Translations under genes and position numbers: made by a program
The notes under the pieces: model-generated
The model's database searches: none
Told to the model about the DNA's origin: nothing
Seen by the model: only the letters and a program-made list of their open reading frames with translations
From: Halomonas icarae
GTDB lineage: Bacteria > Pseudomonadota > Gammaproteobacteria > Pseudomonadales > Halomonadaceae
NCBI RefSeq assembly: GCF_009901955.1
Contig: NZ_WUTS01000001.1
Coordinates: 1,868,817-1,932,816 of the forward strand
DNA length: 64,000 nucleotides
Direction: 5' to 3'
Shown here: positions 13,178 through 17,752 of the stretch, in pieces
How the letters are laid out: each line of letters opens with the position of its first letter
Numbering within the stretch: the stretch's first letter is position 1

Positions 13178-14677
13178 ATGTTCGAAGCCATGTCGCTCGG
13201 CCTTGCCACCGCCTTTCAACCGGCAATGCTGCTCGCCGTTCTTGTCGGGGTCACGGCGGGCGTATTCATCGGGATGCTGCCCGGCCTGACCAGTACCATG
13301 GGGGTGGCACTGCTGATCCCCGTGACCTTCTCCTTTCCCCCTGCAGTGGGCCTTTCGCTACTCGGCGGCATTTATCTCGCCTCTACATTCAGTGGCTCAA
13401 TCAGTGCCATTCTGCTGAACATACCCGGTACACCCTCGGCCGTGGCCACCTGCCAGGACGGCTTCCCCATGACCCAGCAGGGCAAGGCGGGGCGGGCCAT
13501 CGGTCTGTCGGTGTATGCCTCCAGCCTGGGCGGCATCTTCAGTACTCTGGTGCTGCTGTTCATGGCCCCAGCCCTCTCCGAGCTGTCATTGATGCTGGGC
13601 GCGCCAGAATATTTCCTGTTGGCACTGTTCGGCGTCACCATCATCGCCTCCCTATCCGAGGGCGACATGCTCAAAAGCATGATGGGCGGCGTACTGGGGC
13701 TGATCATCAGCCTGGTGGGAATGCACCCCATGACCGGCGAAATGCGCCTTACCTTCGGCCTTCCGGCGCTCTACGACGGCATCCCGCTAGTGATCTCGCT
13801 AATCGGGCTCTACTCCATCCCCGAGGTGATCAGCATGCTCAATGCTGACGGCAAGGCCGAGCAGGAGACCCGCTCCAGCTTTACAGGCGCATTGTCATCG
13901 CTTCGCGACGTAGTGGCCCAGAAGGTCAACCTGATTCGCTCCTCCATTATCGGCACCATCGTCGGAATCGTGCCAGGCGCCGGCTCCAGCATCGCCAGCT
14001 TCATCGCCTACGACTCTGCCAAGCGCGCCTCGCGTCAACCGCAAATGTTTGGCAAGGGGTCCGAGGAAGGGCTGATTGCTGCAGAGTCGGCCAACAACGC
14101 CGTCACCGGCGGATCTCTGGTACCTCTACTAACCCTGGGCGTACCCGGAAACCCAGTGACTGCCGTGCTGATGGGCGGCCTGATCATTCATGGCCTGGCA
14201 CCTGGCCCTGCGCTGTTCGAAAACACCCCCGACATCGCCTACGGCTTCATCTTCAGTCTGGTACTGAGCAACCTAATCTTCATCCCCATCGGGCTGCTGG
14301 TGGCCAAGTACTGCGTGAAGGTAATCCTTCTGCCCCGCGAAATTCTCGCCACGACGATCCTGGCGCTGGCGATTATCGGTGCATTCGCTCTTCGTGGTCA
14401 GGTCGGCGACGTATTGATGATGCTGGGCATTGGCATCGTCGGCTACCTGTTCACGGTGTTCTCCGTCTCTCGGGCACCCATGGTGCTGGGGCTGGTGTTG
14501 GGCGCCATGGCCGAATCGAACTTGTCCCGCGCGCTGATGCTGGTGCGTGGCGATACCGGCGAGCTGATTCTGCAGTTCCTCACCCGTCCGTTCTCCATCG
14601 GCCTGGTGCTGCTCTGCCTGCTCTCCATCTATCTGGGTTTCCGCAAAGGAAAGGTGGCCAAGCCCACCGCTCAATGA
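13178..14677 (+). CDS. tctA: TctA large membrane subunit
   Basis: 499 residues, about twelve hydrophobic segments. Family hallmarks are GVFIGMLPGLTSTMGVALLIP near the N-terminus and its internal repeat IVGIVPGAGSSIASFIAYD, both with the PG-x-x-S/T loop, plus GVPGNPVTAVLMGGL. It forms the Na+- or H+-coupled channel of the transporter that works with TctC and TctB. Its stop is followed within 20 bases by the start of the beta-propeller gene, indicating one operon. Confidence 0.93.
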   Translation: MFEAMSLGLATAFQPAMLLAVLVGVTAGVFIGMLPGLTSTMGVALLIPVTFSFPPAVGLSLLGGIYLASTFSGSISAILLNIPGTPSAVATCQDGFPMTQQGKAGRAIGLSVYASSLGGIFSTLVLLFMAPALSELSLMLGAPEYFLLALFGVTIIASLSEGDMLKSMMGGVLGLIISLVGMHPMTGEMRLTFGLPALYDGIPLVISLIGLYSIPEVISMLNADGKAEQETRSSFTGALSSLRDVVAQKVNLIRSSIIGTIVGIVPGAGSSIASFIAYDSAKRASRQPQMFGKGSEEGLIAAESANNAVTGGSLVPLLTLGVPGNPVTAVLMGGLIIHGLAPGPALFENTPDIAYGFIFSLVLSNLIFIPIGLLVAKYCVKVILLPREILATTILALAIIGAFALRGQVGDVLMMLGIGIVGYLFTVFSVSRAPMVLGLVLGAMAESNLSRALMLVRGDTGELILQFLTRPFSIGLVLLCLLSIYLGFRKGKVAKPTAQ

Positions 14678-14694
14678 AAGCTAAAGGAATACGC

Positions 14695-15978
14695 ATGACA
14701 CGCTCTTCTTCCGCCATCGCCGCAATCCCCTGCTCCATCGCCAAGTTGGGCCGTGATGGCATGCACTATTTCTTCGGGTACTACAACAAAAGTACCTGGA
14801 ACGCCCAGGGTACCCAGATCCTTGCCAATCGCGTGCCCTACATGGACCGCGACCTGACCCCCGAGCTCGAAGCCGAGGTGGGTTATTTCGACTCGGTGGG
14901 CGGTGACTTCCACACGATCGGAACTACCAGCGCCTGGAACTGGCAGATGGGCTGTCAATTACAGTGGCTGGAGGGGCAAGGCAAGCGCCAGGTCATCTAC
15001 AACGTTCGACATACCACGCCCCAGGGAAAGTACCCGAATTTCGGCTCAGTTATTCATGATCTGGACAGCGGCGAGTCGCGGACCCTCGCCGACCCGATCT
15101 ACTCGGTAGCGCCGGACAGTTCCTATGCGATCACCGTCGATTACCGTCGCCTCTACATCACTCATGAGACGATCGGCTACGCCGAGATTGAAGGCGAGAA
15201 GCTGCCCGTGGAGCACTGCCCGGCTGACGACGGTGTCTGCCGTGTGGACCTGGATACCGGCGACCTTCAGGTACTGGTAAGCTACGACGAGCTGAAGAAC
15301 TTCCATTACCGCGACTCCATGGCCAACGCCATTCACTGGGTCAGCCATATCGAGATCAATCCGGCCTCGAACCGCATCCTGTTCCTGCATCGCTGGACCG
15401 AGCGCGTGGAAGACGAGACCTGCTTTCTCCACCGCTTGATCACCATCAACTCCGACGGCAGCGACATGCGACTGCTGGAGTGCTCCGACCACCCGCTGCC
15501 ACAACTGGCTGAGGACTTCGACCCCAACGCCGTGGGCACCTACGACTACGAAAAGTCGGAGTATCAGATCTCCCACCCGCTGTGGAAAAGCGATGACGAG
15601 ATCATCGTCTGGGGACCGCATGACGGAGAGATCCACTATCATCTCTATCATGACGCCCCCAATGGAAAAGTCAGCGTGGTCGGTCGCGGCATCCTCACCG
15701 AGAACGGCCACATGAGCTACTCTCCGGTGAACTCACGCTGGCTGTTAACCGATACCTACCCGGACGCTGAAACCAACATCCGTAAGCTGCTGATCTTCGA
15801 TACCCAGGAGGAGCGAGCCATCGAGATCGGCGAGTTCTACACCTCGGATCTCAAGAAGGAGAACCGCTGCGACCTGCACCCTCGCTGGAATCATCAGGGC
15901 ACTCAGGTCTGCATCGACTCCGTACATGACAACGAACGCCAGATGTACATCATCGACGTCACCCCCGTGATCAACTAA
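14695..15978 (+). CDS. Oligogalacturonide-lyase-like beta-propeller protein
   Basis: About 427 residues without a signal peptide, so probably cytoplasmic. Repeated blade-like motifs and spaced histidines (IHWVSHIEINP, YQISHPLWKSDDEIIVWGPHDGE, NGHMSYSPVNSRWLLTDTYPD, CDLHPRWNHQGTQVCIDS) resemble the seven-bladed oligogalacturonate lyase (PL22) fold and its metal-binding histidines. If active, it would split unsaturated digalacturonate or a related uronate dimer imported by TctABC. Identity with true PL22 enzymes cannot be judged here, so a non-lyase relative remains possible. Start 14695 has AAAGGA six bases upstream; an alternative ATG at 14674 overlaps the tctA stop (ATGA) and would add seven residues. 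Confidence 0.6.
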   Translation: MTRSSSAIAAIPCSIAKLGRDGMHYFFGYYNKSTWNAQGTQILANRVPYMDRDLTPELEAEVGYFDSVGGDFHTIGTTSAWNWQMGCQLQWLEGQGKRQVIYNVRHTTPQGKYPNFGSVIHDLDSGESRTLADPIYSVAPDSSYAITVDYRRLYITHETIGYAEIEGEKLPVEHCPADDGVCRVDLDTGDLQVLVSYDELKNFHYRDSMANAIHWVSHIEINPASNRILFLHRWTERVEDETCFLHRLITINSDGSDMRLLECSDHPLPQLAEDFDPNAVGTYDYEKSEYQISHPLWKSDDEIIVWGPHDGEIHYHLYHDAPNGKVSVVGRGILTENGHMSYSPVNSRWLLTDTYPDAETNIRKLLIFDTQEERAIEIGEFYTSDLKKENRCDLHPRWNHQGTQVCIDSVHDNERQMYIIDVTPVIN

Positions 15979-16039: not shown

Positions 16040-16171
16040 ATCCGTTCAAGCCCCCGGCACTGCACAAACTTGGTGACGCTGGCGCAGAACAAGCTCACCT
16101 CCTTCCCCCAATCACCGCCGCAAGCCCGCTCATGAGACAATGAAGGCACCCAGGCGCCTTCAAGGCAGCCA

Positions 16172-16200
16172 TTGACAGCTCCTTACCACCGCCGTACTGT
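16172..16200 (+). promoter_or_regulatory. Sigma70-type promoter before the tandem riboswitches
   Basis: TTGACA (16172-16177), a 17-base spacer and TACTGT (16195-16200). Transcription would start around 16207, exactly at the first base pair of the first riboswitch aptamer, which strengthens both calls. Confidence 0.7.
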
Positions 16201-16206
16201 GAACTC

Positions 16207-16258
16207 AGCGCCGATTTGACTATCAGCTTGCGGGCGCTCTACAAGTTCCGCTAAAGCG
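16207..16258 (+). ncRNA. SAM-II riboswitch aptamer, first copy
   Basis: Matches the SAM-II (metA, 'SAM-alpha') consensus as I know it: GATTTGA, CTTGCGGGCG, ACAA and GCTAAA in the right order and spacing. Stem P1 is a perfect 6 bp (agcgcc 16207-16212 with ggcgct 16233-16238) enclosing the U-rich loop. The 3' GCTAAAGCG (16250-16258) is the part used in the ligand-bound pseudoknot and is also perfectly complementary to 16271-16279. SAM binding should therefore release the downstream terminator: a transcriptional OFF switch. Confidence 0.8.
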
Positions 16259-16268
16259 ACGCCCAGAG

Positions 16269-16303
16269 CCCGCTTTAGCCCATGCAAAGCGGGTTTTCTG
16301 TTT
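16269..16303 (+). terminator. Riboswitch-controlled intrinsic terminator with alternative antiterminator
   Basis: CCCGCTTT (16269-16276) pairs with AAAGCGGG (16286-16293), followed by TTTTCTGTTT. The competing antiterminator pairs GCTAAAGCG of the aptamer (16250-16258) with CGCTTTAGC (16271-16279). The two helices share bases 16271-16276 and cannot coexist. Confidence 0.8.
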
Positions 16304-16318
16304 CTGGCCCTCGGGCCA

Positions 16319-16370
16319 CCGCCGATTTAAGCACCAACTTGCGGGCGGAATATAAATGCAGCTAAAGCGG
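16319..16370 (+). ncRNA. SAM-II riboswitch aptamer, second copy
   Basis: GATTTAAGC, CTTGCGGGCG, ATATAAATG and GCTAAAGCGG follow the SAM-II consensus even more closely than copy one. P1 is CCGCC (16319-16323) with GGCGG (16344-16348). Bases 16320-16373 align without gaps to 16209-16262 of copy one (41 of 54 identical). No terminator follows. A 7-bp pairing TCCCCTG (16384-16390) with CAGGGGA (16427-16433) brackets a GTCGGC/GCCGAC hairpin (16392-16407) and reaches the purine-rich ribosome site before 16450, which suggests translational control. Confidence 0.8.
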
Positions 16371-16449
16371 CGCACGGCTCCACTCCCCTGGGTCGGCGCT
16401 TGCCGACTACGCCAACCATCGTCTTACAGGGGAATGGGAGACCACCATC

Positions 16450-16689
16450 ATGACCTACTCGATACAGACCACCGCTAAACGGCCCTCGAACACCCCGCGC
16501 GCCTGCCTCGCGGCACTGGACCTGACTCAGGAAGACCTCGTCCGTCCGGAGCTGCGCGACGATGTCATCCTCGCCAAGCGACTGCCGCGTCATGGAAACA
16601 CCATCACCGGCCGGCATGATCCGCTGGTTGGCGGCCATCGAACCGGACGAACGGCTCTTGCTGTAACATCAACCAATCTAAATACCTGA
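16450..16689 (+). CDS. Short ORF behind the SAM-II riboswitches, function unknown
   Basis: 79 codons (MTYSIQTTAKRPSNT...) with GGGAG 10 bases upstream. I recognise no domain, and no known methionine-pathway protein. The C-terminal third (GHRTGRTALAVTSTNLNT) looks unstructured. It could be a genuine small protein, a leader ORF, or the remnant of a methionine/SAM gene that the riboswitches once controlled. It ends 30 bases before azlC on the same strand. Confidence 0.4.
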   Translation: MTYSIQTTAKRPSNTPRACLAALDLTQEDLVRPELRDDVILAKRLPRHGNTITGRHDPLVGGHRTGRTALAVTSTNLNT

Positions 16690-16719: not shown

Positions 16720-17436
16720 ATGGCACGCAAGGAGGCGACATTGCACCGGCTGGATCGAGCGCTGGTGTGGGATGGATTCAAGGCGCTGCTGCCCATCTCG
16801 CTATTCGTCACCATCTTCGGCATCGCCTTCGGCCTGGCCGCCACCCAGGCCGGGCTCGGTGACGGCACCATCATGCTGATGAGCACCCTGGTGTTCGCCG
16901 GCGCCTCCCAGTTTGCCGCCCTGGAGCTGTGGGAGCCGCAGATCCCGCTGTTCACCATGATGGTGACCGTCTTCGCCATCAATGCTCGACACCTGCTGAT
17001 GGGGGCTACCCTCTACCCCTGGCTCGAACCGCTCCCGCCTGCCAAGCGCTACGGCATCATGCTGGTCGCCTCCGACGCCAACTGGGCCATGGCCACCCAG
17101 GCGTTCACCCGCGGCCGCCCTGGGCTCGGCCTGATGCTGGGTGGCGGCATCGCCCTGTGGTGTTTCTGGGTTCTCGGCACCTGGCTCGGCCTCAACGTGG
17201 GGGGTGCCATAAGCGATCCCGCCAGCCTGGGACTCGACATGGTGATGGGCTGCTTCCTGCTGGCCATGGTGGTGGGCGGCGAGAAGAACCTGCGCATGCT
17301 GCTGATCTGGGCGGTGGCCGCCGGCGCCTCGCTGCTCGCCTTCTACTATCTCCCGGACAACAGCCACGTGGTGGTGGGAGCCATCGCCGGTGGCCTGGCC
17401 GGCCTGACCTGGGGGAAGCGTGACCATGAGCATTGA
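16720..17436 (+). CDS. azlC: AzlC-family branched-chain amino acid exporter large subunit
   Basis: 238 residues with several hydrophobic segments; FGIAFGLAATQAGL, FAGASQFAALELW and FAINARHLLMGATL are AzlC/YgaZ signatures. With its small AzlD/YgaH partner this family exports branched-chain amino acids and in some bacteria methionine. Ribosome site GAGGAG. It sits downstream of two SAM-II riboswitches and the short ORF at 16450, with no obvious terminator between, so SAM-responsive expression is possible. An exporter that is switched off by SAM would be counter-intuitive, which is why the short ORF may be the original target. Confidence 0.9.
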   Translation: MARKEATLHRLDRALVWDGFKALLPISLFVTIFGIAFGLAATQAGLGDGTIMLMSTLVFAGASQFAALELWEPQIPLFTMMVTVFAINARHLLMGATLYPWLEPLPPAKRYGIMLVASDANWAMATQAFTRGRPGLGLMLGGGIALWCFWVLGTWLGLNVGGAISDPASLGLDMVMGCFLLAMVVGGEKNLRMLLIWAVAAGASLLAFYYLPDNSHVVVGAIAGGLAGLTWGKRDHEH

Positions 17437-17752
17437 GGCAACCGGTCTGGGAACCGTGATCATTATCCTGGCCATGGCGCTGGTCACTCTGGCGACTCGC
17501 TGGGGCGGTGTATTCGTGATGTCCTTCGTCCCCATCGGCTACCGCGTCAGGCGCTTCATCCACGCCATGTCGGGCTCTGTGCTGGTGGCGCTGCTCGCCC
17601 CACTGGCGGTAAGTGGCGACAACGGCGCCCGCCTGGCCCTGCTGACCACCGCGGTGATCATGCTGACGCTGAAGAAGCCGCTGCCGGCCATTGCCGGGGG
17701 CATCCTGGTGGCAGCGCTGTTCCGACAGCTCTGGCCCGCACTAAGTGCCTGA
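17426..17752 (+). CDS. azlD: AzlD-family small exporter subunit
   Basis: 108 residues, four hydrophobic segments, with LATRWGGVFVMSFVPIGYRVRRFIHAMSGSVLVALLAP typical of AzlD/YgaH. ATG 17426 is chosen because GGGGAAG is 7 bases upstream; a GTG at 17420 is in frame. Its start overlaps the end of azlC by 11 bases, so the pair is translationally coupled and forms one exporter. Confidence 0.88.
   Translation: MSIEATGLGTVIIILAMALVTLATRWGGVFVMSFVPIGYRVRRFIHAMSGSVLVALLAPLAVSGDNGARLALLTTAVIMLTLKKPLPAIAGGILVAALFRQLWPALSA

Follow-up and report, generated by a model that had tools for sequence, protein, structure and literature searches.

Tandem SAM-II aptamers in a Halomonas leader, joined to a terminator and to a ribosome-site hairpin: a probable bi-mechanism OFF switch

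The leader described here, within the 64-kb stretch of Halomonas DNA that we analyzed (the window), raises two questions: whether both of its SAM-II-like segments are SAM-II aptamers, and whether each of them acts on gene expression through a platform of its own. An earlier note, made from the letters of the sequence, had placed both copies behind one promoter. The promoter TTGACA-17-TACTGT does lie at the position then given, and promoter-like boxes occur at the equivalent place in relatives according to our sequence comparison. Its assignment is a consensus match, and the transcript would be expected to start near the first base of aptamer 1. The coordinates of the two copies and the landmarks GATTT, CTTGC, GGGCG and GCTAAA in both also stand, but not the 41 of 54 shared bases: our alignment gives 39 identical bases in 53 columns. 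All predicted features are collected in Table 1.

Table 1. Predicted elements of the tandem leader and the genes behind it; positions are those of the window
Feature	Position	Strand	Details and basis
Sigma-70-type promoter	16172..16200	+	TTGACA 16172-16177, spacer 17 nt, TACTGT 16195-16200
SAM-II aptamer 1	16207..16259	+	RF00521 27.0 bits, E 2.5e-4; pair counts; two relatives above gathering score
Aptamer 1 P1	16207-16212 with 16233-16238	+	
Aptamer 1 pocket	GAUUU 16213-16217, UUGC 16228-16231, GCUAAA 16250-16255	+	
Aptamer 1 pseudoknot	C16231-G16250, G16230-C16251, U16229-A16253, U16228-A16254, C16227-G16256, C16224-G16258, U16223-A16259	+	
Antiterminator	16250..16279	+	GCTAAAGCG 16250-16258 with CGCTTTAGC 16271-16279, 9 bp; shares GCUAAA pocket strand
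Intrinsic terminator	16269..16303	+	CCCGCTTT 16269-16276 with AAAGCGGG 16286-16293; U-rich tail TTTTCTGTTT 16294-16303
Small linker hairpin UGGCC-CUCG-GGCCA	16305..16318	+	adjoins aptamer 2 on its 5′ side; sequence
SAM-II aptamer 2	16319..16370	+	RF00521 18.5 bits, E 0.052; 28-mer in 32 of 90 genus genomes
Aptamer 2 P1	16319-16323 with 16344-16348	+	
Aptamer 2 pocket	GAUUU 16324-16328, UUGC 16339-16342, GCUAAA 16361-16366	+	
Aptamer 2 pseudoknot	C16342-G16361, G16341-C16362, U16340-A16364, U16339-A16365, C16338-G16367, C16335-G16369, C16334-G16370	+	
Anti-sequestor	16370..16399	+	16370-16373 with 16396-16399; 16376-16380 with 16390-16394; overlaps 3′ strand of aptamer-2 pseudoknot
Sequestor hairpin	16376..16443	+	16378-16381 CUCC with 16437-16440 GGAG; 16384-16390 with 16427-16433; alignment fold
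Sequestor inner hairpin	16391-16397 with 16402-16408	+	
Shine-Dalgarno GGGAG	16436..16440	+	9 nt 5′ of start codon; sequence
79-aa conserved ORF, core LTQEDLVRPELRDDVILA	16450..16689	+	first gene 3′ of leader; coding signal
azlC-like transporter gene	16720..17436	+	Pfam AzlC 120.1 bits; 30 nt 3′ of ORF
azlD-like gene	17420..17752	+	Pfam AzlD 49.6 bits; overlaps azlC end

When 311 bases (16150-16460) were analyzed with cmscan, the family SAM_alpha (RF00521) matched 16198-16277 with 27.0 bits (E 2.5e-4) and 16309-16386 with 18.5 bits (E 0.052), both under its gathering score of 36 bits, which is a rule for database inclusion and not a biochemical feature. No Rfam family reaches its gathering score anywhere in the 64-kb window, the two aptamer copies included. 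The check that had been proposed, two Rfam matches above threshold, thus fails for the window itself, whereas the first copies of L001 (41.9) and L002 (37.2), which are homologous to copy 1, exceed the score. It was passed by nine of the 20 loci tried (L001, L002, five metZ-linked, one metK-linked and L165), and five of ten metZ-linked loci stay below it. As the window copies score below threshold, the case for SAM-II rests on relatives.

We aligned 31 aptamers, a subset of those detected; the window supplied 2 of them, the genus 22 and genomes beyond it 7. P1 and the pseudoknot were paired in 94.8% of 403 cells compared to 89.2% in shuffles, and none of 500 shuffles matched the real alignment in paired cells or in covariation score. 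Sliding the helix partners by 1-3 columns lowered pairing to 30-54%. The count of further pair types in these 31 aptamers was not above that of the shuffles, and the outermost P1 pair is broken in 15 of them. P1 pair 9-41 swaps between G-C and C-G (16/15) and pseudoknot pair 27-64 between C-G and U-A (15/11, with 5 unpaired); since the swaps mostly divide first from second copies, they represent few events, counted many times. The fold is that of an H-type pseudoknot, with a P1 hairpin whose loop pairs with the 3′ strand to form P2, and double changes are found in both helices.

Both window copies contain GAUUU, UUGC and GCUAAA, which we take to be the places of the ligand-contacting nucleotides in the numbering of 2QWY; if so, all 13 pocket nucleotides are present in both. 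The invariant SAM-II pocket consists of U10-12, U20, U21, G22, C23 and G42-A47 of that structure (PMC3764141). For copy 2 we also considered SAM-V and rejected it, SAM_alpha being the only match there in a cmscan with all families at E up to 10. An accidental likeness, or a repeat that has no role as RNA, would account for the below-threshold Rfam scores; the paired changes in P1 and the pseudoknot largely refute this, conservation, placement and family matches also speak against it, and we give it practically no weight. Our comparison confirms that the window holds two SAM-II-type aptamers behind one predicted promoter.

SAM is the likely ligand of the leader, because similar aptamers elsewhere precede metZ, metN, metF and metK. 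Among the 29 best covariance-model loci outside the window (L142-L170), which are the closest matches and not a random sample, the downstream genes, assigned by eye, were 19 metZ-like, two metK, one metN and one metF; the rest comprised two MoxR-like ATPase genes, two other ORFs and two loci without ORF. In an NCBIfam check of one locus each, metZ, metF and metK passed the cut-off; MetN was the top match with 453.7 of the 499.7 required, and its NIL domain passed in Pfam. The immediate targets of the leader are not textbook methionine genes, as might be the case if the SAM-II fold had changed its ligand, for example to another adenosyl compound. Set against this are the kept pocket nucleotides and the methionine genes behind similar aptamers, and a changed ligand appears very improbable to us.

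The window's own genome carries a further SAM-II before a metN-like gene (L032, minus strand, G000:C1 near 772957), of which Rfam shows only a fragment (17.6 bits). With up to 2 mismatches, the pattern of this metN-type SAM-II occurs in 81 of 90 genus genomes. A hairpin of variable sequence is inserted in its loop L3 at all 31 loci examined (L032, L259-L288), and the distance from GGGCG to GCTAAA is 32-51 nt, against 13 nt in window copy 1. GAA(G/A)UGC(A/G) is conserved 5′ of GCUAAA, an ACCC/GGGU pseudoknot is present in 15 aligned loci, a terminator was found by regular expression at 29 of 31 loci, and the first ORF chosen by script has a MetN-type Walker A at 23 of 31. The current Rfam cut-off misses part of gammaproteobacterial SAM-II, including this very common leader of the genus. 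On the minus strand, window positions 16173-16299 match RF02424, the Bp2_287 sRNA (E 4.6e-5, 29.7 bits vs a gathering score of 70). The part of the RF02424 consensus that is printed contains, in reverse complement, SAM-II landmarks and a terminator, and Bp2_287 has been described as lying 5′ of methionine genes in the majority of genomes (PMC3521395). According to this comparison, RF02424 probably represents a SAM-II leader whose annotation was placed on the opposite strand by mistake.

At a cut-off of E 1, SAM_alpha pairs about 110 bases apart were found in six genus genomes among 58 relatives searched; at this cut-off 8 of 14 control genomes also match, none above the family cut-off, and lone weak matches mean little. 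A 28-mer of copy 2 with one free position gave 39 matches in 32 of 90 genus genomes, all with 0 mismatches where two were permitted, and its reversed control gave none in the same 90 genomes. A longer pattern run on named contigs found 35 stretches, 31 in Halomonas or Billgrantia and the other four in an Ectothiorhodospiraceae bin (two contigs), a Thioalkalivibrio bin and gamma proteobacterium NOR5-3. Copy 1 lies upstream of copy 2 at 37 of the 39 genus sites (36 by regular expression, L049 by covariance model with 72.3 bits) and is absent upstream at two, the second sites of L090 and L091. The covariance model, which is independent of the 28-mer, adds only one strong genus site, a copy-1-type aptamer alone (G101). 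As far as pattern and model recognize it, roughly one genome in three of the genus retains the tandem pair.

Mean pairwise difference among the sites is 7.5% for copy 1, compared at equal lengths only, and 3.1% for copy 2, the latter partly by selection since the sites were located with the copy-2 pattern. For the core of the ORF behind the leader it is 13.4% at first and second codon positions and 34.9% at third. Judged by these differences, the RNA rather than the ORF is the constrained part, with copy 2 having doubled as the search key. Across the class, our own covariance model, made from the aptamers of these leaders, matched 182 of 369 sampled genomes at E 0.01, the calibration being short and the E-values rough. 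SAM-II had been described in the earlier note as mainly alphaproteobacterial, a view these matches contradict; gamma-Proteobacteria were already listed for SAM-II in 2007 (PMC2258182), and a survey of about 200 genomes reported SAM_alpha from Rhizobiales and Rhodobacterales alone (PMC4239095). Viral contigs gave no exact match to the 28-mer; in plasmids, 16195-16460 had no blastn match and protein B (see below) no tblastn match. Spread by phages or plasmids is unsupported by these searches, in which absence is weak evidence.

Platform 1 was analyzed in 31 leaders, namely 30 of the 36 with a copy 1 found by regular expression and Thioalkalivibrio L128. The terminator is paired in 98.6% of 216 cells, with a single doubly changed pair, in L128, and the antiterminator in 98.2% of 279 cells, with zero paired changes. 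Shuffles reached values as high as the real ones in 33 of 500 cases for the terminator and in 500 of 500 for the antiterminator; they fail to single out either helix because both hardly vary. In the folding of the window RNA, the antiterminator has -12.1 kcal/mol and the 8-bp terminator alone -11.3, while the best fold with 16250-16258 blocked, an extended terminator, has -19.5. The antiterminator is the first of the two to form and the terminator the more stable, which is the pattern of kinetic switches. The two helices had been predicted at these positions, and our alignment shows copy 1 to be joined to a terminator and an antiterminator that are conserved and predicted to be mutually exclusive.

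The stem said to reach the ribosome site behind copy 2 is likewise real and conserved in the aligned leaders. In 31 of the 38 leaders reaching the start codon, the sequestor CUCC..CCCCUG..CAGGGG..GGAG is paired in 96.8% of 443 cells, its structure being partly derived from the fold of the same alignment. It has three doubly changed pairs (five cells), a number reached by none of 500 shuffles. The CUCC/GGAG helix is 90.8% paired, the misses being leaders with the Shine-Dalgarno sequence aligned one base off; a hairpin at the linker position also appears in the alignment fold of the 31 leaders. With the aptamer strand blocked, the mean probability of the Shine-Dalgarno sequence being unpaired is 0.13 over the 38 leaders (0.23 in the window, maximum 0.50). 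From this comparison, copy 2 is joined to a conserved hairpin predicted to pair the Shine-Dalgarno sequence.

Whether copy 2 could open this hairpin is less clear, and the translational layer is the weakest inference of our reading. The anti-sequestor, formed by 16390-16399 and the 3′ strand of aptamer 2, is paired in 99.6% of 270 cells of the aligned leaders, without covariation. For the window RNA in isolation, the sequestor has -32.8 kcal/mol compared to -23.2 with the anti-sequestor enforced. Since the complete sequestor is better by about 10 kcal/mol, copy 2 could switch only during transcription, or never, and the steeper or two-layer response suggested earlier is not borne out by these energies. 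When the RNA ends before the sequestor is completed, the outer helix of the anti-sequestor is in the minimum-energy fold of 38 of 38 leaders, and a translational layer is plausible in the folding model only as a co-transcriptional choice.

The second layer may instead be fixed repression: only copy 1 would switch, while copy 2 binds or once bound SAM and the ribosome-site hairpin closes regardless, giving constant low translation. The folding energies and the anti-sequestor pairs without covariation are as this alternative predicts, whereas the anti-sequestor adopted by all truncated transcripts and the low variability of copy 2, which varies less than any other measured segment of the leader though it was also the search key, are not. 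Tandems of other families also argue against it. Regular expressions found eight such tandems in five genomes of four other families; all eight have a T run behind the first aptamer and none behind the second, from which a start codon is 68-74 nt away on the 3′ side. We consider a leader switched by copy 1 alone unlikely, at perhaps one chance in a handful. A rule by which GATTTG marks the upstream and GATTTA the downstream aptamer was dropped; its upstream half holds in nine of nine non-Halomonas tandems and its downstream half fails in two of the nine (L215, L218).

We favor, with good though not full confidence, a bi-mechanism tandem SAM-II leader acting as an OFF switch. At low SAM, the aptamer-1 3′ strand GCUAAAGCG would pair with the 5′ arm of the terminator and polymerase would read on; the aptamer-2 3′ strand would then pair with 16390-16399 and keep the sequestor open while the ribosome binds. 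At high SAM, both aptamers would close their pseudoknots. The first would release the terminator, and in transcripts that escape it the second would allow GGGAG to be covered by the sequestor. The 79-aa ORF would be the direct target, and azlCD, 30 nt further on, should come under transcriptional control as well.

A core like DDIVRPELRNDAIL is encoded by the equivalent ORF at 31 of 39 genus sites; of the other eight, seven have a protein of about 210-270 aa (B) instead, and one lies at a contig edge. Entropy of the ORF core by codon position is 0.36/0.30/0.86 bits, highest at the third position and therefore as expected of coding sequence. The 79-aa ORF has no match in Pfam, NCBIfam or PHROGs. 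The position of azlC could be measured at six of eight loci tried, with a gap of 10-50 nt in five and of 1454 nt in one, and azlC is probably on the same transcript as the ORF. An OFF switch on the exporter-like azlCD makes no obvious sense, which counts against the OFF-switch reading. Elsewhere in the window (14674-15978), a 434-aa ORF follows tctC, tctB and tctA and has no Pfam match at E 0.001.

Two further proteins were analyzed together with B, c2 (218 aa, behind the same leader in relatives) and a 215-aa protein. None of the three has an NCBIfam or PADLOC match; B and the 215-aa protein have none in Pfam. In PHROGs, c2 and the B homologue of L125 have no match and the 215-aa protein has one (E 0.047). 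For c2 and B, no solved structure matched below E 0.2, their AlphaFold models are poor (mean pLDDT 50.5 and 61.6, respectively), and Foldseek found no match for the B model at E 0.001. Some match to c2 occurs in 15 of 90 genus genomes, full-length (> 370 bits) in ten of these, and outside the genus in five of 369 class genomes. The stretches of about 3.5 kb around these five c2 genes contain no SAM-II detectable by regular expression, and a tie between c2 and SAM-II outside the genus was not seen. B was found in none of the 369 class genomes, a sample without any known B carrier and hence uninformative.

The B cassette of G060 adjoins BrxL and PglZ (BREX genes) and that of G093 adjoins SspA and SspB. 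In the unscanned ORF list of G004, some ORFs begin at almost the same positions as the BrxL and PglZ genes of G060. Unscanned ORF lists of the remaining B loci showed no such defence neighbours, and we set a defence link of B aside as island company only. The loci of tandem plus B in this company are L086/L233, L046/L232 and L097/L234, and a tyrosine integrase lies near the G060 and G093 copies.

The same leader also stands before metK homologues at L090, L091, L036 and L097, in three genomes (G073, G027 and G093). These leader-linked copies are frameshifted, partial or degenerate, and each of the three genomes has an uninterrupted metK elsewhere; L090/L235, L091/L236, L036 and L097/L234 are the loci of this broken or partial second metK behind tandem leaders. 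No metK remnant and no c2 are detectable in the window. Because the same leader precedes metK pieces in three relatives, an operon serving SAM synthesis may have given rise to that of the window, and the ancestor may have been a leader-ORF-c2-(aptamer)-B-metK operon, as in G073.

Such descent could have left a relic, the switch of a former accessory metK operon that now stands before a vestigial ORF and does little. The broken or partial metK pieces fit this, as does c2, which has no match in the window's genome (G000) and of which G005 and G016 keep mere fragments close to the leader. Yet the aptamers are far less variable than the silent sites of the ORF, whose core protein sequence is kept at 31 of 39 sites with a third-position bias. 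A leader that has become a relic thus seems rather unlikely to us, somewhat more so than one switched by copy 1 alone.

In G228 and G440, from a family outside the order, a tandem (its first aptamer in G228 detected by covariance model only) is followed by a MoxR-like ATPase. Farther downstream, and in the same orientation, come a VWA/DUF2201 protein and a MetK that is divergent (140 bits vs a cut-off of 309.4; 27-30% identity). In G440, which is 94% complete, the divergent protein is the sole metK match. SAM-II before a MoxR-like ATPase was seen at L224 and L225 (G228 and G440), L116 and L130, with a PcfJ-like gene upstream at L116. We tentatively raise the possibility, which we hold to be less probable than its opposite, that the leader belongs to a SAM-fed module which is portable and has moved between gammaproteobacteria, partly on islands. 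In it, a switch of two SAM-II layers would stand before small proteins without assigned function and a SAM synthetase of accessory or divergent type, joined in other families by a MoxR-type ATPase and by VWA proteins. If true, an acquired SAM-making operon would be shut off by its own product, and the window would keep only the switch and the first ORF, re-used before azlCD. Other accumulations of aptamers were observed: G356 has ten SAM-II matches in one genome, including two pairs of tandem loci that resemble each other and precede ORFs of 74 aa and 98 aa (L215-L219), and L220 (G469) has four aptamers within about 3.2 kb, before ORFs without assigned function.

Taken together, these results make tandem SAM-II a recurring trait within a single cultivable genus, which offers dozens of naturally occurring versions of what would be one two-layer design, and the leader points to protein families without known function that share it with SAM synthetase pieces. 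Our literature search, which left subscription papers and supplements outside, found nothing relevant on SAM-II or another SAM riboswitch in Halomonas. SAM-II was described in the earlier note as usually single; two in series are already in print, with 44 tandem SAM-II reported by Sherlock et al. 2022 (PMC9481103), in some of which an intrinsic terminator goes with the first aptamer and the second is placed where the ribosome binds ahead of the following ORF. The passages of that paper on the tandem examples do not name the organisms or genes of the 44, and Halomonas could already be among them.

Several known systems resemble the window leader in part. In Sinorhizobium, SAM-II acts in vivo on metZ with a terminator and on metA with ribosome-site control (PMC9373788), the same two types of control as in the window, but with single aptamers at separate genes. 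The metXZ element of beta-proteobacteria was described as a separate RNA element with a pseudoknot and a terminator in metX and metZ leaders (PMC4239095); like RF02424 (PMC3521395), it is not called SAM-II in the sections that describe it. The SAM-II/SAM-V tandem shares with our leader a transcriptional SAM-II followed by a putative translational SAM aptamer, the second aptamer being SAM-II in the window and not SAM-V; in the Pelagibacter example, the SAM-II domain was described as responding little within the full-length RNA. The closest likeness is to the bi-mechanism tandems of PMC9481103, with two SAM-II each followed by its own platform, as far as that text describes them. The window leader differs from these in that its direct target lacks a family match and those of its relatives include metK pieces, and it adds a case to this published mixed-platform kind of tandem SAM-II.
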